NCBI RefSeq assembly: GCF_026410085.1
Contig: NZ_CP112866.1
Span: forward strand, 1,736,001 to 1,800,000
Length of the DNA stretch: 64,000 bases
DNA from: Pseudomonas quebecensis
Lineage (GTDB): Bacteria; Pseudomonadota; Gammaproteobacteria; Pseudomonadales; Pseudomonadaceae
Direction: 5' to 3'
Part shown: positions 1 to 45,333 of the stretch, piece after piece
How the letters are laid out: each line of letters starts with the position of its first letter
Position numbering within the stretch: the stretch's first letter is position 1
Program-made: the position numbers and the translations under genes
Notes under the pieces: generated by a model
The model's input: the letters and a program-made list of their open reading frames with translations, nothing else
Databases searched by the model: none
What the model was told of the DNA's origin: nothing

Positions 1-62
1 ATGAAGCCGAAGCCTTTTTCATCGTTGAACCATTTAACGGTGCCGGTTTGGCGATTAGACAT
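1..62 (-). CDS. Cold-shock protein (CspA family), 5' end only
   Basis: The first 20 codons and part of the 21st are present on the minus strand; the rest lies outside the window. They read [20 protein letters not shown], the N-terminus of single-domain CspA-type RNA chaperones of about 70 residues. The RNP1-type stretch KGFGF is visible, with the basic/aromatic KWFN before it. These proteins bind single-stranded nucleic acid and melt RNA secondary structure. A GGAG ribosome-binding site lies 6 bases before the ATG. The name of the specific paralogue cannot be settled from 20 residues. Confidence 0.93.
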
Positions 63-217
63 GGTGTATCTCCAAGAAACATATATTTTCAGTAGTGCTG
101 TGCTGCTCAGGCCAACTGGGCACACCGGGCTATCATAGTCGAAATGTTCGGCTTGGGAGCCCCCCCAAGGCATTGTTTGCTAATCAATAGCGTTGCGTTT
201 AGCCCTTTGACTGGCTG

Positions 218-240
218 AAAGCCCCGGTCTACGGGGCTTT
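218..240. terminator. Rho-independent-type hairpin between the secreted-protein gene and the csp gene
   Basis: Perfect 9-bp stem AAAGCCCCG / CGGGGCTTT with a 5-base loop. It lies about 110 bases downstream of the stop of the minus-strand gene at 352-666 and upstream of the csp gene, so it probably ends that transcript. The T tract is short (three bases). A second G/C-rich hairpin (stem CTTGGG/CCCAAG, 152-169) lies closer to csp. I see no gene in 63-351; it holds these hairpins and the csp leader, with a possible minus-strand -10 box TATGAT at 132-137. Confidence 0.55.
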
Positions 241-351
241 GATGCAAAACATAAGGGTGTAAAAAAAGCCGTAAAAGCTGCGTATTTTGTGAGAAACGAG
301 GCATTTCAGGCCGTTTTTTCAGGCAAATAGCCGTCTGATCGGGCGGCGATA

Positions 352-666
352 TTACTTTTTCTTCACGACTTTGCAGGACGAAATAGCCGCCACCGCTTTG
401 TTTTTAAGCTGCGGGCTGGCGTTCTGGTTAGTCATGAGTTCTTTGATTTCTGCAGTACTCAATTCCGCGTTGATTTTGTCCGCGCCACATTCGCAATGGG
501 CCTTGGCGGTCTTGGCGTCCACGTTCTGGCTGGCTGCGGCGCTGCAGTCGCTGACAAAGCTTTCACGGGCACCGGCTGGCCAGTTAGACGGGGCTGCGGC
601 CTGAGCGCCGAAGGAAAGAACAGTCAGGGAGGCGGCGAGAGCGAGGGTCGAGGTAAAACGCATCAT
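352..666 (-). CDS. Small secreted four-cysteine hypothetical protein
   Basis: 104 residues. A signal peptide is clear: basic start, hydrophobic core and an AQA-A cleavage site near residues 22-24, so the mature protein of about 80 residues is periplasmic or exported. Four cysteines follow (about C41, C58, C60, C98), suggesting two disulfides. The C-terminus is basic (VVKKK). Two adjacent ATG codons (666 and 663) are possible starts; an AGGAG motif sits 6 bases before the first and 9 before the second. I do not recognise a function. Confidence 0.75.
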   Translation of the reverse strand: MMRFTSTLALAASLTVLSFGAQAAAPSNWPAGARESFVSDCSAAASQNVDAKTAKAHCECGADKINAELSTAEIKELMTNQNASPQLKNKAVAAISSCKVVKKK

Positions 667-905
667 GGGATGCTCCTATGGGTCGAGGACGAACGGCGAT
701 TCTCAGTGGCTTTGAGGCGCCGCGTACAGCTCAAGTTCACTTTTGCAGCTATAAAGCCTGGAAATCTGCATTACCGGCGGCGGCGGCTCTGCGATGACCG
801 TTCATCTGTGCTAGCATCGACGCCCTGGCTATTTCCCGGTGTGCCAAAGGCCGCCTTGCCACGTTACTTTTGTTCACTCCAGTCACTCTGGTTCGATGAT
901 CGGTT

Positions 906-955
906 GGCCGAGAGGCTCCTGCCGCTGTAAGGCAGGCGTTCAGAAATGAACGGCC
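906..955 (+). promoter_or_regulatory. Structured leader segment upstream of thrS
   Basis: GGCCG (906-910) can pair with CGGCC (951-955) to enclose two hairpins: CCTGCC/GGCAGG (918-936, 7-base loop) and CGTTCA-GAAA-TGAACG (937-952, GNRA-type tetraloop); the last bases compete between helices. No T tract follows, so it does not look like a terminator. It may be the upstream part of the thrS translational operator. The rest of the gene-free stretch 667-1031 shows no credible coding sequence. Confidence 0.35.
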
Positions 956-991
956 TGATATTGGATCTTGTACTGGCTCATCCCAACCCAC

Positions 992-1012
992 GTGACCTTT
1001 GGTAGGGGTCAC
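992..1012 (+). promoter_or_regulatory. Candidate thrS autoregulatory operator mimicking the tRNA-Thr anticodon arm
   Basis: A 7-bp stem (992-998 with 1006-1012, one G-T pair at the loop) closes a 7-base loop TTGGTAG. That is the geometry of a tRNA anticodon arm: U at position 33, GGU at 34-36 (a threonine anticodon), A at 37. It ends 5 bases before the purine-rich ribosome-binding tract at 1018-1027. In E. coli, ThrRS represses its own mRNA by binding a leader hairpin that mimics the tRNA-Thr anticodon arm. The hairpin is seen directly; the function is inferred from that precedent. Confidence 0.65.
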
Positions 1013-1031
1013 CACTAGGAGAGGAGGCGCC

Positions 1032-2954
1032 ATGCCAACTATTACTCTTCCCGACGGCAGTCAGCGTTCATTCGATCATCCGGTTTCGGTAGCCGAAGTC
1101 GCCGCGTCGATTGGCGCAGGCCTGGCCAAGGCCACCGTGGCCGGCAAGGTCGACGGCAAACTGGTCGATGCCAGCGACCTGATCACCAGCGATGCCAGCC
1201 TGCAAATCATCACGCCCAAGGACCAAGAGGGGCTGGAGATCATTCGCCACTCCTGTGCGCACTTGATTGGCCATGCGGTCAAACAACTGTACCCGACTGC
1301 AAAAATGGTGATCGGCCCGGTCATTGAAGAAGGCTTTTATTACGATATCGCCTACGAGCGTCCTTTTACTCCGGATGACCTCGCGGCCATCGAACAGCGC
1401 ATGCACGCCCTGATCGAAAAAGATTACGACGTGATCAAGAAGGTCACGCCGCGCGCCGAAGTGATCGATGTGTTCACCGCCCGCGGCGAAGATTACAAGC
1501 TGCGTCTGGTCGAAGACATGCCGGACGAGCAGGCCATGGGCCTGTACTACCACGAAGAATACGTGGACATGTGCCGTGGTCCGCACGTGCCGAACACGCG
1601 CTTCCTCAAGTCGTTCAAATTGACCAAGTTGTCCGGCGCCTATTGGCGCGGCGACGCCAAGAATGAGCAGCTGCAGCGTATCTACGGTACTGCCTGGGCT
1701 GACAAGAAGCAGCTGGCCGCTTATATCCAGCGTATCGAAGAAGCCGAAAAACGCGATCACCGCAAGATCGGCAAGCGCCTGAACCTGTTTCACCTCCAGG
1801 AAGAAGCGCCGGGCATGGTGTTCTGGCACCCGAATGGCTGGACTCTGTACCAGGTGCTTGAGCAATACATGCGCAAGGTTCAGCGCGAAAACGGCTACCT
1901 GGAGATCAAGACTCCGCAGGTCGTTGATCGCAGCCTGTGGGAGAAATCCGGGCACTGGGCCAACTACGCCGACAACATGTTCACTACGCAATCGGAAAAC
2001 CGCGACTACGCCATCAAGCCGATGAATTGCCCGTGCCACGTGCAGGTGTTCAACCAAGGCCTGAAGAGCTACCGCGAGTTGCCGATGCGCCTGGCCGAGT
2101 TCGGTGCCTGCCACCGCAACGAGCCCTCGGGTGCGCTGCACGGCATTATGCGCGTGCGTGGCTTCACACAGGACGACGCCCACATCTTCTGCACCGAAGA
2201 GCAGATGCAGGCTGAGTCGGCTGCGTTTATCAAGCTGACCATGGATGTCTATCGCGATTTCGGCTTTACCGAAGTCGAGATGAAGCTGTCCACTCGTCCG
2301 GAAAAGCGCGTCGGCTCCGACGAATTGTGGGATCGCGCCGAAGCTGCACTGGCCGCAGCGCTCGACAGCGCGGGTCTCGCGTACGATCTGCAGCCGGGCG
2401 AGGGCGCCTTCTACGGGCCCAAGATTGAATTTTCGCTGAAAGATTGCCTTGGCCGTGTCTGGCAATGTGGTACCTTGCAGCTCGATTTTAACCTGCCGAT
2501 CCGTCTGGGAGCCGAATACGTCTCCGAAGACAACAGCCGTAAGCACCCGGTCATGCTGCACCGGGCGATCCTCGGTTCGTTCGAGCGGTTCGTCGGAATC
2601 CTGATCGAGCACTACGAGGGTGCATTCCCTGCGTGGCTGGCTCCAACCCAGGCAGTGATCATGAATATCACTGATAAACAGGCAGATTTTGCCGCTGAAG
2701 TTGAAAAAACTCTCAACGAAAGCGGATTTCGTGCCAAGTCCGACTTGAGAAATGAAAAGATCGGCTTTAAAATCCGCGAGCATACTTTGCTCAAGGTTCC
2801 CTATCTTTTGGTTATCGGAGATCGGGAAGTCGAGATGCAGACTGTCGCTGTGCGTACTCGTGAAGGTGCTGACCTGGGCTCGATGCCCGTCGCCCAGTTC
2901 GCTGAGTTCCTCGCGCAAGCGGTTTCCCGGCGTGGTCGCCCAGATTCGGAGTAA
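1032..2954 (+). CDS. thrS: Threonyl-tRNA synthetase
   Basis: 640 residues, the usual length. It charges tRNA-Thr with threonine in the cytoplasm. Domains in order: TGS (about 1-62), editing domain with the SCAHL and HxxxH-type motifs (about 63-225), class II catalytic core (about 245-535) and anticodon-binding domain (about 540-640). The zinc ligands are visible: C333 in MNCPCH, H384 in DDAHIF and H510 in MLHRAI. Motif 2 reads CHRNEPSG. The ATG at 1032 is chosen over an earlier in-frame start because GAGGAGG lies just upstream and the family begins MPTITLPDG. The stop overlaps the infC start region. Confidence 0.98.
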
Positions 2955-3505
2955 TTATTATTAAGCGTGAAATGAGACAAGATAAACGAGCTGCACCGAA
3001 AGCCCCGATCAACGAGAATATCTCGGCACGCGAGGTTCGGTTAATTGGCGCTGACGGCGAGCAGATTGGCATCGTCTCGATTGATGAAGCGCTTCGTATC
3101 GCTGAAGAGTCCAAGTTGGACCTGGTGGAAATTTCCGCCGACGCAGTCCCGCCTGTTTGCCGGGTGATGGACTACGGCAAATCGATCTTCGAAAAGAAGA
3201 AGCAGATTGCTGCAGCGAAGAAGAACCAGAAGCAGATTCAAGTAAAAGAAATCAAGTTTCGTCCAGGGACGGAGGAAGGGGATTACCAGGTAAAACTGCG
3301 CAACCTGGTACGTTTCCTGAGTGATGGGGACAGGGCCAAGGTATCCTTGCGATTCCGCGGCCGTGAGATGGCCCACCAGGAGCTGGGGATGGAACTCCTC
3401 AAGCGGGTTGAAGCTGACCTGCTCGAGTACGGTTCGGTCGAACAGCATCCTAAGATGGAAGGACGCCAGCTGATCATGGTCATCGCCCCGAAAAAGAAGA
3501 AGTAA
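2954..3505 (+). CDS. infC: Translation initiation factor IF-3, AUU start
   Basis: About 183 residues. IF-3 binds the 30S subunit, prevents premature 50S joining and checks start-codon pairing. The N-domain ([15 protein letters not shown]...), lysine-rich linker helix ([15 protein letters not shown]) and C-domain ([13 protein letters not shown], ending APKKKK) are all present. The first ATG (2972) would remove a conserved N-terminal basic stretch. Three consecutive ATT codons (2954, 2957, 2960) follow a GGAG at 2948-2951, so initiation is probably at one of these; which one is uncertain. IF-3 discriminates against AUU starts, which gives autoregulation in E. coli. The first ATT overlaps the thrS stop by one base. 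Confidence 0.93.
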
Positions 3506-3565
3506 TCAACAGGGCACGGCAGGCCTTCTGATTATGTTTATCAACTGAATGCGGAGTATCCGAAC

Positions 3566-3760
3566 ATGCCAAAGATGAAGACTAAAAGTGGTGCTGCTAA
3601 GCGGTTTCTGAAAACTGCTAACGGTATCAAGCACAAGCACGCTTTCAAGAGCCACATCCTGACCAAAATGTCGACCAAGCGTAAGCGTCAACTGCGCGGT
3701 AGCAGCTTGCTGCATCCGTCTGACGTGGCAAAAGTCGAGCGCATGCTGCGCCTTCGTTAA
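3566..3760 (+). CDS. rpmI: 50S ribosomal protein L35
   Basis: 64 residues, standard length. Very basic, beginning [14 protein letters not shown] and ending RMLRLR, as in L35. It is a component of the large subunit. It sits 60 bases after infC and 30 before rplT, in the conserved infC-rpmI-rplT order. In E. coli the L20 protein represses translation of rpmI and rplT; I did not identify the corresponding RNA fold here. Confidence 0.98.
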
Positions 3761-3790
3761 TTTTTGGATCAAGAATAGAGGAAGTAACTC

Positions 3791-4147
3791 ATGGCTCGTG
3801 TAAAGCGTGGCGTCATTGCCCGTAAACGTCACAAAAAAATTCTGAAACTTGCTAAAGGCTACTACGGCGCGCGTTCACGCGTATTCCGTGTTGCCAAGCA
3901 AGCGGTAATCAAGGCAGGCCAATACGCCTACCGTGACCGTCGTCAGAAAAAACGTCAGTTCCGCGCTCTGTGGATCGCTCGTATCAACGCTGGTGCTCGT
4001 GTTAACGGTCTGTCCTACAGCCGTTTCATCGCCGGTCTGAAAAAAGCGTCCATCGAGATCGACCGTAAGGTTCTGGCTGATCTGGCAGTGAACGAAAAAG
4101 CGGCGTTTGCTGCGATTGTCGAGAAAGCTAAAGCCACCTTGGCTTAA
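3791..4147 (+). CDS. rplT: 50S ribosomal protein L20
   Basis: 118 residues, standard length. It binds 23S rRNA early in 50S assembly and is the likely autoregulator of rpmI-rplT. The arginine/lysine-rich N-terminal extension ([16 protein letters not shown]) and globular C-domain ([15 protein letters not shown]) are typical. A GAGGAAG ribosome-binding site precedes the ATG. Hairpins at 4162-4239 follow the gene. Confidence 0.98.
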
Positions 4148-4161
4148 GTACCCCCGACAGT

Positions 4162-5273
<1,112 letters not shown>

Positions 5274-5299
5274 TCGTAACGAATCTTTAGGAGAGCAGG

Positions 5300-7678
5300 A
5301 TGAAATTCAGTGAACAATGGCTGCGTGGCTGGGTAAGCCCGCAGGTAAGTCGCGACGAGCTGGTCGCTCGTCTGTCGATGGCCGGTCTTGAGGTCGATAG
5401 CGTTACGCCGGCCGCCGGTGTTTTCAGTGGCGTGGTAGTGGGTGAGGTGCTGAGCACCGAGCAACACCCCGATGCTGATAAGTTACGTGTATGCCAGGTC
5501 AGCAACGGCGCCGAAACGTTCCAGGTCGTGTGCGGAGCGCCCAACGTGCGCCCGGGCCTGAAGATTCCGTTTGCCATGATCGGCGCCCAGCTGCCGGGCG
5601 ACTTCAAGATCAAGAAGGCCAAACTGCGTGGTGTTGAGTCCAACGGCATGCTGTGCTCCCAGGCTGAGCTGCAGGTAGGCGAGGGCAATGACGGCCTGAT
5701 GGAGCTGCCGGCCGATGCGCCGGTGGGCCAGGACATCCGTGTCTATCTGGAGTTGGAAGACGCCAGCATCGAGGTCGACCTGACTCCCAACCGTGGTGAC
5801 TGCCTGTCCCTGGCGGGGCTGGCGCGTGAAGTAGGCGCGTTGTACAACGCTCCAGTCACTCGCCCAGTGGTCGCCGCAGTGGCTGCGGTGCATGATGAAG
5901 TGCGGCCGATCGAAGTGCTGGCTCCAAACGCCTGCCCGCGTTACCTGGGCCGTGTGATCCGTAACGTCGACCTGTCCAGGCCTACCCCGCTGTGGATGGT
6001 TGAGCGCCTGCGTCGCGCGGACGTGCGCAGCATCGATGCTGCCGTCGACATCACCAACTATGTGATGTTGGAGCTGGGTCAACCGCTGCATGCGTTCGAT
6101 CTCGCCGAAATCAACGGTGGCATTCGCGTACGCATGGCCGAAGAAGGCGAAAAGCTGGTGCTGCTCGACGGCCAGGAAGTGGCCTTGCGCGCCGATACCC
6201 TGGTGATCGCCGACCATTCCCGCGCCCTGGCGATTGCCGGCGTGATGGGTGGCGAGCACAGCGGTGTGTCCGCGACCACCCGTGACGTGTTCCTTGAAAG
6301 CGCATTCTTCGACCAGATTGCCATCGCCGGCAAGGCCCGTTCCTATGGCCTGCATACCGATGCATCACACCGCTACGAACGTGGCGTGGACTGGAAGCTG
6401 GCCCGCGAGGCCATGGAGCGCGCCACTGGCCTGTTGCTGGAAATCACCGGTGGCGAAGCTGGTCCGATCACCGAAACCGTCAACGAGCAGTACCTGCCGT
6501 CCGTTGCGCCGATCACCCTGCGCGCCAAAAGTGTCGAGCAGATGCTTGGCCTGGTGATCGCACCGGCTGAAATCGAACAGCTGTTGTCTGCTCTCGGCCT
6601 GGGTATTTCTTCGAGTGGGGAAGGACAGTGGCACGTTGAAGTGCCAAGCCATCGCTTCGATATCAGCCTGGAAGTCGACTTGATTGAAGAGCTGGCGCGC
6701 TTGTACGGCTACAACCGCCTGCCGGTTCGTTATCCGCAAGCGCGCCTGGCACCGCAACCCAAGGCCGAAGCGCGTGCGCATCTGCCTGAGCTGCGTCGCT
6801 TGTTGGTGGCTCGTGGTTATCAGGAGGCAGTGACCTACAGCTTCATCGATCCCAAGCAGTTCGAACTGTTCAACCCTGGCGTCGAGCCGCTGCTGCTGGC
6901 CAACCCTATTTCCAACGACATGGCGGCCATGCGCTCTTCGCTGTGGCCAGGCCTGGTGAAAGCGCTTTCCCATAACCTGAACCGTCAGCAAGACCGCGTG
7001 CGCATGTTCGAAAGCGGCCTGCGCTTCGTCGGCCAACTGGACGGCCTCAAGCAAGAGCCGATGTTGGCGGGTGTTGTATGCGGTAGTCGCTTGCCCGAAG
7101 GCTGGGCGCAAGGCCGCGACGCGGTAGATTTCTTCGACGTCAAGGCTGATGTGGAAGCGGTGTTGGGCTTCGCCGGTGCACTGGACGCTTTCACGTTTGT
7201 GCCGGGCAGTCATCCAGCGTTGCATCCTGGCCAGACCGCTCGCATCGAACGCGAAGGGCGCCTGGTGGGCTTCATTGGTGCTCTGCATCCTGAATTGTCG
7301 AAAACCCTCGGTCTCGACCGTCCGGTCTTTGTTTTCGAATTGGTATTGGCTGAAGTGGCTGCAGGCAAGATGCCCAAATTCAGCGAGTTGTCGCGCTTCC
7401 CTGAAGTGCGCCGTGACCTGGCGCTGATCGCCGATCGTGGAGTGCCCGCCACTGCCGTTATGGAGGTAATCCGTGAAAATGCAGGGGAATGGCTGACGGA
7501 CCTCAGGCTATTTGACGTCTATCAGGGTAAAGGTATTGATCCGCATAGAAAAAGCCTTGCGGTCGGCTTGACCTGGCAGCATCCATCGCGCACTCTTAAT
7601 GACGATGAGGTGAATGCCACGACACAAAATATCCTCACCTCGCTTGAACAAAGGTTAAACGCCACGTTAAGGAAGTGA
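5300..7678 (+). CDS. pheT: Phenylalanyl-tRNA synthetase, beta subunit
   Basis: 792 residues, standard for the bacterial long beta subunit. Domains in order: tRNA-binding OB domain (about 39-150), B3/B4 editing region (about 210-385), B5 (about 400-475), catalytic-like core (about 480-690) and the C-terminal FDX-ACB anticodon-binding domain (about 698-792, SRFPEVRRDLAL onward). A GGAGAGCAGG tract precedes the ATG. It ends 3 bases before ihfA, so the two are probably co-transcribed. Confidence 0.98.
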   Translation: MKFSEQWLRGWVSPQVSRDELVARLSMAGLEVDSVTPAAGVFSGVVVGEVLSTEQHPDADKLRVCQVSNGAETFQVVCGAPNVRPGLKIPFAMIGAQLPGDFKIKKAKLRGVESNGMLCSQAELQVGEGNDGLMELPADAPVGQDIRVYLELEDASIEVDLTPNRGDCLSLAGLAREVGALYNAPVTRPVVAAVAAVHDEVRPIEVLAPNACPRYLGRVIRNVDLSRPTPLWMVERLRRADVRSIDAAVDITNYVMLELGQPLHAFDLAEINGGIRVRMAEEGEKLVLLDGQEVALRADTLVIADHSRALAIAGVMGGEHSGVSATTRDVFLESAFFDQIAIAGKARSYGLHTDASHRYERGVDWKLAREAMERATGLLLEITGGEAGPITETVNEQYLPSVAPITLRAKSVEQMLGLVIAPAEIEQLLSALGLGISSSGEGQWHVEVPSHRFDISLEVDLIEELARLYGYNRLPVRYPQARLAPQPKAEARAHLPELRRLLVARGYQEAVTYSFIDPKQFELFNPGVEPLLLANPISNDMAAMRSSLWPGLVKALSHNLNRQQDRVRMFESGLRFVGQLDGLKQEPMLAGVVCGSRLPEGWAQGRDAVDFFDVKADVEAVLGFAGALDAFTFVPGSHPALHPGQTARIEREGRLVGFIGALHPELSKTLGLDRPVFVFELVLAEVAAGKMPKFSELSRFPEVRRDLALIADRGVPATAVMEVIRENAGEWLTDLRLFDVYQGKGIDPHRKSLAVGLTWQHPSRTLNDDEVNATTQNILTSLEQRLNATLRK

Positions 7679-44412: not shown

Positions 44413-45333
44413 ATGGACCGATTTCACGAGATGCAGGTGTTTCTGGCGGTCGCCGAGGAGCAGGGCTTTGCCGCTGCGGCGCGGCGTTTGAACACGTCGC
44501 CGCCGAGCGTGACCCGCGCCATCGCCGCCATGGAGCAACGCCTCGGCACGCAGTTGCTGGTGCGTACCACCCGCAGCCTGCACCTGACTGAAGCCGGCCA
44601 GCGTTATCTGGAAGATTGCCGGCGCATCCTCGCCGAGCTGGACGAGGCCGAGGAAGCGGCGGCGGGCAGTTATGCCAACCCCTGGGGCCACCTCACGCTG
44701 ACCGCCCCGGTGCTGTTCGGCGAGCTGTATGTGGCACCGCTGCTGGGTGAATATCTCGACCGCTTCCCCCAGGTGACGATCAACGCGCTGCTGGTCGACC
44801 GTGTGGTGAACATGGCCGATGAAGGCGTCGATGTGGCCGTGCGTATCGGCCACCTGCATGAGCCGGGGCAACAGGCGATCAAGGTTGGCGAGGTGCGCCG
44901 CGTGGTATGCGCCGCGCCGGGGTATCTGGATCAGCATGGCCGGCCCGACCATCCCGCGCAGTTGCGCGAGGCGACGATCGCCACCTCATCCGCCAGCCAG
45001 GTGGTCAGTGAATGGCAATTCGTCGACAACGGCCGGCCGCTGGCGGTGTCGATCACGCCGCGGCTGGTGGTTTCGGCGAATAACGCGGCGATCAACCTGG
45101 CGCGCCTGGGCTGGGGGATGACGCGAGTGTTGTCCTACCAGGTCGCGGCGGCGGTGGCGGCCGGCGAACTGGAGATTGTCCTCGAGGCCTTCGAGCCGCC
45201 GCCACTGCCGATCCAAGTGGTGTTCCACAACCGTAGGCGCGTGCCCGCCAGGATCAACAGTTTTGTCGACTTTCTCAGCCAGCGCCTGAGCCAGGATGCT
45301 GCGTTGAACCCGCCCCACGGGCGTCGTCATTGA
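44413..45333 (+). CDS. LysR-family regulator (first of an overlapping pair)
   Basis: 306 residues. The N-terminal helix-turn-helix (about 1-60) reads FAAAARRLNTSPPSVTRAIA. The C-terminal effector domain is of the CrgA/DmlR-like type (WGHLTLTAPVLFGELYVAPL). It is 9 bases after the GST gene and may control it. It ends TGATG into the next LysR. Confidence 0.95.
   Translation: MDRFHEMQVFLAVAEEQGFAAAARRLNTSPPSVTRAIAAMEQRLGTQLLVRTTRSLHLTEAGQRYLEDCRRILAELDEAEEAAAGSYANPWGHLTLTAPVLFGELYVAPLLGEYLDRFPQVTINALLVDRVVNMADEGVDVAVRIGHLHEPGQQAIKVGEVRRVVCAAPGYLDQHGRPDHPAQLREATIATSSASQVVSEWQFVDNGRPLAVSITPRLVVSANNAAINLARLGWGMTRVLSYQVAAAVAAGELEIVLEAFEPPPLPIQVVFHNRRRVPARINSFVDFLSQRLSQDAALNPPHGRRH

Follow-up and report, generated by a model that had tools for sequence, protein, structure and literature searches.

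The window analysed here, a stretch of 64,000 nucleotides of Pseudomonas quebecensis DNA, contains thrS and, a short distance before its start codon, a hairpin resembling the anticodon arm of tRNA-Thr. This raises the question of whether the thrS leader could be an operator at which threonyl-tRNA synthetase (ThrRS) controls its own translation and, if so, how much of the leader belongs to it. Autorepression by a bacterial ThrRS is described in reviews for E. coli (PMC11088916, PMC9976931, PMC7373986), where the enzyme is reported to bind two anticodon-like hairpins of the thrS leader and to exclude the 30S subunit (PMC11088916, PMC3858243, PMC7373986); the ribosome site of the E. coli gene is described as bipartite (PMC3858243). 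The G and U of the anticodon are given as identity elements for ThrRS, and removal of the N-terminal region of the enzyme is reported to abolish regulation (PMC7373986). As presented in PMC9976931, the E. coli operator is without an acceptor-arm equivalent and has a second anticodon stem instead.

The hairpin closest to thrS (hairpin 2, Table 1) has the 7-bp stem, the 7-base loop TTGGTAG and the GGU in anticodon register that the first-pass annotation of this DNA had claimed, all of which are read directly from the letters. GTGACCT (992–998) pairs with GGGTCAC (1006–1012), with U-G as the closing pair, and the loop (999–1005) falls into the register U32, U33, G34, G35, U36, A37 and G38. Six of these seven bases are the same as in the loop of the host tRNA-Thr(GGU), the arm of which consists of TTGGTAA between CACCC and GGGTG. 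The 3' end of hairpin 2 stands 19 nucleotides upstream of the ATG at 1032, and the spacing of five bases to the ribosome-binding tract, as given in the first pass, holds when counted from GGAG at 1018 and becomes four when counted to the start of the tract at 1017. Both strands of the window taken together contain 200 perfect hairpins of this size (7 bp, 7 nt), 17 of them with GU at positions 35–36, and hairpin 2 is the single case with a TTGGTA loop. Just 3' of hairpin 2 there is a CACT flank (1012–1016) with a conservation almost equal to that of the loop; in 60 class-wide leaders, found with a model that itself covers the flank, it reads CACTG in 56, CACTA in two and CTCTG in two.

Table 1. 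Positions of the thrS leader features and of thrS within the window
Feature	Position	Strand	Description or evidence
Outer helix P1	879..976	+	CCAGU 879–883 with ACUGG 972–976; leader alignment and fold
Closing helix P2	890..967	+	890–897 with 960–967; covariation
D-arm-like hairpin Pa	906..917	+	906–909 with 914–917, loop GAGA
Upstream anticodon-like arm	918..936	+	Stem 918–923/931–936, loop 924–930 GCTGTAA, UGU at 34–36
T-arm-like hairpin P4	937..952	+	937–942 with 947–952, loop GAAA; long-linker leaders only
C-rich linker GGCUCAUCCCAACCCA	968..991	+	Conserved; 972–976 is the 3' strand of P1
Hairpin 2, anticodon-arm mimic	992..1012	+	Sequence, conservation, covariation, model matches, E. coli likeness
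Shine-Dalgarno tract AGGAGAGGAGG	1017..1027	+	Sequence and leader alignment
thrS, threonyl-tRNA synthetase, 640 aa	1032..2954	+	Protein domains

Folding energies are ordinary both for the isolated hairpin 2 (z -0.2) and for the 181-nt leader (also z -0.2). When folded in isolation with RNAfold, hairpin 2 gains the pairs U999-G1005 and U1000-A1004, which leave GGU as a three-base loop. The lowest-energy fold of 880–1060 disrupts the hairpin, its 5' strand being paired with GUCAC at 882–886; the centroid fold of the same segment retains it, as does a fold begun at 877. With a z of -0.2 and one lowest-energy fold that disrupts the stem, thermodynamic support for hairpin 2 was discarded, and the support for this element is comparative rather than energetic.

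thrS was present in all 59 Pseudomonas genomes drawn, and in every one of them a perfect 7-bp hairpin 2 starts 40 nucleotides before the ATG, with GGU as anticodon in 58 and CGU in one (L126). Among 80 relatives found through their ThrRS protein, 68 have hairpin 2 with at least six of the seven pairs (L067 and L090 left out). The other 12 are four Lysobacterales, five Burkholderiales, a Moraxella MAG, one further MAG and Halomonas L091, in which the loop TTGGTAT is kept and the stem is lost; none of these 12 leaders gave a match at E up to 1 to the covariance model R1 described below. As the element is absent from the thrS genes of the Lysobacterales (four) and Burkholderiales (five) examined, thrS as a gene does not depend on it.

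The loop was analysed both with and without a demand for GU. When GU was not demanded, the distinct 7-bp/7-nt hairpins close to the start codon numbered 35, of which 28 had GU at 35–36, and a hairpin of this GU type was found in 123 of 139 protein-found leaders, both counts including L067 and L090, which we take for unrelated hairpins. The 139 leaders, from which the paralogues L140 and L141 were left out, correspond to 87 distinct regions, of which mononucleotide shuffles predict 0.28 to have such a hairpin, and they are non-independent, being mostly from Pseudomonas and with some genomes in both sampled sets. In 75 distinct hairpins taken from 188 leaders, for which GU at 35–36 was demanded and L067, L090, L140 and L141 were left out, base 34 is C in 39, G in 23, T in eight and A in five; base 33 is T in 67 and base 37 is A in 63. 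G35 and U36 are also invariant in an alignment of 44 leaders that were picked by dissimilarity from 95 Pseudomonadaceae leaders and aligned with no demand for GU. The conserved part of the hairpin 2 loop is G35-U36, and base 34 varies (C, G, U or A). Of the conservation in relatives that had been anticipated for both the stem and GGU, that of the stem and its place is borne out, whereas GGU as such is not what is conserved. The result that the first pass had named as refuting its suggestion, a stem or GGU without conservation in related genomes, was not obtained.

Covariation was assessed on 40 distinct sequences, including that of E. coli, which had been selected for a GU loop and a stem with six or more of the seven pairs; L067 and L090 were left out of this alignment and of R1, being terminator-like 7-bp hairpins without the CACT flank. 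Paired cells make up 97.9% of the alignment, compared with at most 56.4% in slid controls. The covariation score was 0.516 versus 0.242 in shuffles, none of the 500 being as high, and 34 cells carry two-sided changes versus 9.6 in shuffles. Two of the five measures did not exceed the shuffles, namely the pairs changed on both sides (five of seven, reached by 55 of 500 shuffles) and the further pair types (11, reached by 399 of 500). Stems that differ occupy the same place, as in GTGACCT/GGGTCAC, ATGCCCC/GGGGCAT, ATGATTG/CAATCAT, GTGCTCT/GGAGCAC and GTGATCC/GGATCAC. The compensatory changes for which the first-pass annotation had proposed a test are found between genera; the Pseudomonas-only alignment that it had put forward for finding them proved unsuited to that purpose, as five of the seven pairs are invariant in the 44 Pseudomonadaceae leaders, with zero two-sided changes. 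Compensation is invisible within Pseudomonas because the stem hardly varies in this family, and other genera were required.

The covariance model R1 (37 nt, hairpin 2 and flank; cut-off E up to 0.01), the alignment of which was preselected for GU and paired stems and has at least the own genome and G243 in its training set, matched 67 of 229 class-wide (Gammaproteobacteria) genomes, with one match in each; 212 of the 229 had a recognised thrS. All 67 matches lie just upstream of thrS: the 61 that were compared with thrS rows are all within 80 nt upstream on the same strand, and the remaining six were placed by their coordinates. R1 also matched 79 of 115 genomes in an order-level draw (a match count only, positions aside) and 29 of 200 in a draw from the phylum, where three matches fell outside the class with E values of 0.0015 to 0.0094, about two being expected by chance. 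The core hairpin occurs across much of the Gammaproteobacteria, and no class-wide match of the model lies elsewhere than at thrS. The own genome has one match, at E 2.4e-8. The next in rank (44825–44859, E 0.06) was considered as a second operator and rejected, since it lies inside a 306-aa open frame and is taken as chance; this frame was read by eye as a LysR-type regulator.

The first-pass annotation had confined the leader element to 992–1012, and this proved too narrow. In the 44-leader alignment the conserved block spans from about 879 to the ATG, with a second arm and a junction at 879–976 (Table 1); its edge predicts a 5' end of the thrS mRNA slightly upstream of 879. The upstream arm, CCTGCC and GGCAGG around its loop, presents TGT in register, shares five of seven loop bases with the CTTGTAA loop of the host tRNA-Thr(UGU) and is likely to correspond to E. 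coli domain 4. In a search with no demand for GU, all 97 Pseudomonadaceae leaders had a GU hairpin on the 5' side of hairpin 2, 4.0 being expected by shuffling and the next commonest upstream loop type occurring in 19 of the 97, and GU is in register in all 44 aligned leaders. In 75 distinct leaders, a count of the upstream loop, Pa and P4 for which GU in the loop was demanded, bases 34, 37 and 38 of this loop vary and base 33 is C in 62, versus the U33 of tRNA.

The helices around this arm differ in how they can be assessed. P2 has two-sided changes in four of its eight pairs and 93.1% of cells paired (44 leaders), and P1 is nearly invariant and so outside the reach of covariation. Pa, with mostly GNRA loops, has at least four pairs in 67 of the 75 distinct leaders versus 34.3 expected, a modest excess in which some of the 67 counts are other hairpins. 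P4 (at least five pairs, with many different stems) was found in 37 of 38 long-linker leaders versus 3.9 expected, and in one of 37 short-linker leaders versus 1.3 expected. The lowest-energy fold of the leader from 877 on brings these hairpins together in one junction. The module at 879–976 is cloverleaf-like in outline and supported by covariation in this species group; it had no match to the Rfam tRNA model in a scan of window positions 1–6000. RNAalifold had suggested that the invariant linker pairs with the Shine-Dalgarno tract; this was rejected, as the duplex was no better than with shuffled linkers: out of 300 of these, 81 to 281 were as good as the real linker in five Pseudomonadaceae, 27 in E. 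coli and 41 in one Halomonas.

We suggest, tentatively and as something short of an expectation, that the 5' module of the long-linker Pseudomonas leaders, that of the window among them, mimics a whole tRNA in the form of a four-way cloverleaf with a UGU anticodon arm. If this were true, an acceptor-like closing stem would be joined by D-arm-like, anticodon and T-arm-like hairpins; the tRNA-like module would lie on one ThrRS subunit and hairpin 2 on the other; and the operator would have shifted among a single arm, as in some other Gammaproteobacteria, the two arms of E. coli and the arm with a cloverleaf of these pseudomonads.

The proposal that a second arm is general outside the Pseudomonadaceae was unsupported by counts. 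A search for a second GU arm (perfect 7-nt loop, stem of five) found it in seven of 93 such leaders versus 4.9 expected, and with a stem of six or more in four of 93 versus 1.4 expected; these 93 include Halopseudomonas L063 and the MAG L064, in neither of which was the strict upstream arm found. Single good-looking second arms were seen in L092, L106, L211 and L213. Loops of the AC and GA types were frequent outside the Pseudomonadaceae, which fits upstream tRNA-Val genes. Of 108 leaders scanned, 36 (L077, L081, L096, L105, L107, L108 and 30 of L176–L235) have a tRNA-Val(GAC) gene upstream of thrS and on its strand, at a distance of 53 to 298 nt from the ATG, so tRNA processing may generate the 5' end of the thrS mRNA in these cases. 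In certain other lineages a single arm is all that the space allows: in L235, for example, 53 nt separate the end of the tRNA-Val gene from the ATG, and 13 nt of these precede hairpin 2.

Taking these results together, we consider it very probable that the thrS leader is a translational operator for self-repression by ThrRS, with both arms bound in the Pseudomonadaceae. The anatomy, conservation and covariation of the leader were seen here, as were its occurrence at thrS alone in the class-wide draw, its likeness to the E. coli leader and a ThrRS with all of its domains. Conservation, covariation and E. coli likeness also lend support to the first-pass suggestion that the leader hairpin may be an autorepression site; binding, repression, relief by tRNA-Thr and the simultaneous binding of both arms would follow by analogy with E. 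coli. On this model the leader (about 879–1031) would act as the operator: a free ThrRS dimer would bind hairpin 2 via its anticodon-binding domains, reading G35 and U36, and in the Pseudomonadaceae would bind the upstream arm also; the bound enzyme would adjoin the Shine-Dalgarno tract and block the 30S subunit; and tRNA-Thr, when plentiful relative to ThrRS, would compete for the enzyme, so that the operator would be freed and more ThrRS made. In E. coli, a change of the anticodon-like bases to CAU is reported to hand control over to MetRS. A constant G35-U36 with a variable base 34 is what would be expected if ThrRS reads its reported identity bases (PMC7373986).

Hairpin 2 might instead be the ThrRS site by itself, with the upstream module a separate element that serves RNA stability, a ribosome standby site or another regulator and has a GU loop unread by ThrRS. 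We regard this as unlikely. The strict second GU arm is indeed no commoner than chance outside the Pseudomonadaceae (the 7/93 versus 4.9 above), L235 has too few nucleotides before hairpin 2 for a second arm, and the upstream loop mostly has C at position 33, where tRNA has U; however, GU is in register in 97/97 and 44/44 upstream loops while bases 34, 37 and 38 vary, and E. coli is reported to employ two arms (PMC11088916).

Two further readings fare worse than that of hairpin 2 as the sole site. Control of thrS by some other ligand or mechanism (a T-box, terminator attenuation or a leader peptide), with the anticodon likeness incidental, is very improbable. T-box leaders of thrS in Firmicutes exert tRNA-responsive control, as the proposed ThrRS operator would, and T-boxes read the tRNA directly, mostly via a terminator and antiterminator. 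A long conserved leader with several hairpins and alternative folds might suit such a mechanism, but T-box features are absent: no T-box or other Rfam family was found up to E 1 in window positions 1–6000, where the sole match was a weak one to an lncRNA, below its cut-off, and no terminator-like site was found in 700–1100. Nor did the ORF list (20 aa and longer) contain a Thr-rich short leader ORF, and GU is constant in both loops. That hairpin 2 is a chance hairpin would agree with its ordinary folding energy and with the 200 perfect hairpins of this size on the two strands of the window, yet its presence in 59/59 genomes of the genus, its covariation and the 67/67 model matches at one gene reduce this probability to almost nothing; the placement of all 67 R1 matches upstream of thrS rules it out.

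The ThrRS encoded downstream of this putative operator has the Pfam domains TGS, tRNA_SAD, tRNA-synt_2b (class II core) and HGTP_anticodon. Full-length ThrRS paralogues were met in two genomes (L140 in G044 and L141 in G025; 61% and 58% identical to P0001), and the operator hairpin was not found in the leaders of these two, so the operator goes with the thrS locus rather than with ThrRS genes in general. Both recall the ThrRS copies that are said to confer antibiotic self-resistance, for example in obafluorin producers. Eight of the 59 Pseudomonas genomes have a short ThrRS-like gene (about 270 to 320 aa) whose match to ThrRS is confined to the N- and C-terminal parts (L236:447-1265, L237:404-1309 and matches in G002, G005, G021, G046, G053 and G058). 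Two of the short proteins were scanned against Pfam and have TGS and anticodon-binding domains, one also tRNA_SAD, with the class II core absent; the operator hairpin was not found near three of the genes (L236–L238). The short protein is perhaps a trans-editing or regulatory paralogue. Next after thrS there seems to be infC (about 2955–2975), with TAATTATTATTAAGCGTG pointing to ATT as its start codon, presumably as in E. coli infC. At window positions 1–124 on the - strand (L002:271-593), a match to the Rfam cspA thermoregulator (72.5 bits, cut-off 78) precedes a cold-shock-like gene on the same strand, which extends beyond the window.

No thrS operator family was found in Rfam release 15 with window positions 1–6000 and the E. 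coli, Aeromonas, Halomonas and own leaders, at E up to 1, and titles and abstracts of the open-licence literature gave no description of a thrS operator in Pseudomonas, which is weak evidence of novelty. Hairpin 2 alone is expected as a further case of the E. coli-type operator; the whole leader is architecturally different. The leaders thus offer material for an RNA family missing from Rfam, and the drift of base 34 next to a fixed G35-U36 amounts to a natural mutagenesis experiment on synthetase recognition. A second operator of different architecture, in a genus with good genetics, also lets one ask whether a strong Shine-Dalgarno tract and a cloverleaf-like module alter the competition between enzyme and ribosome.

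Binding of a synthetase to mRNA via an anticodon-like hairpin is also thought to occur with AspRS, HisRS and ThrRS of yeast (PMC6542539, PMC9956033), although these mimics are eukaryotic and differ from the Pseudomonas leader in having unrelated sequences and places. The closest relation is with E. coli K-12 (NC_000913), where GTGATCT and GGGTCAC enclose the loop TTCGTGT, CACTG follows and the 5' end is 42 nt before the thrS ATG. Judged by sequence, hairpin 2 is the Pseudomonas counterpart of domain 2 of the E. coli operator: both are 7-bp/7-nt hairpins with NGU in register directly before the Shine-Dalgarno tract of thrS, with nearly identical letters and the same CACT flank. In both species the thrS product is a ThrRS with N-terminal and anticodon-binding domains, and in both a second anticodon-like arm lies upstream, which in our data is constant in the Pseudomonadaceae and not general beyond them. 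The two leaders differ in the anticodon of hairpin 2 (GGU in Pseudomonas, CGU in E. coli) and in the setting of the second arm, which in Pseudomonas, unlike in E. coli, stands inside a cloverleaf-like junction together with at most two further hairpins. The linker and the weak Shine-Dalgarno tract of the E. coli type, the former described as U-rich and unstructured (PMC3858243, PMC9976931), were not found in the Pseudomonas leader, where the linker is C-rich and the tract strong. With this strong Shine-Dalgarno tract, C-rich linker and cloverleaf-like module, the Pseudomonas leader is thus a variant of the E. coli system.
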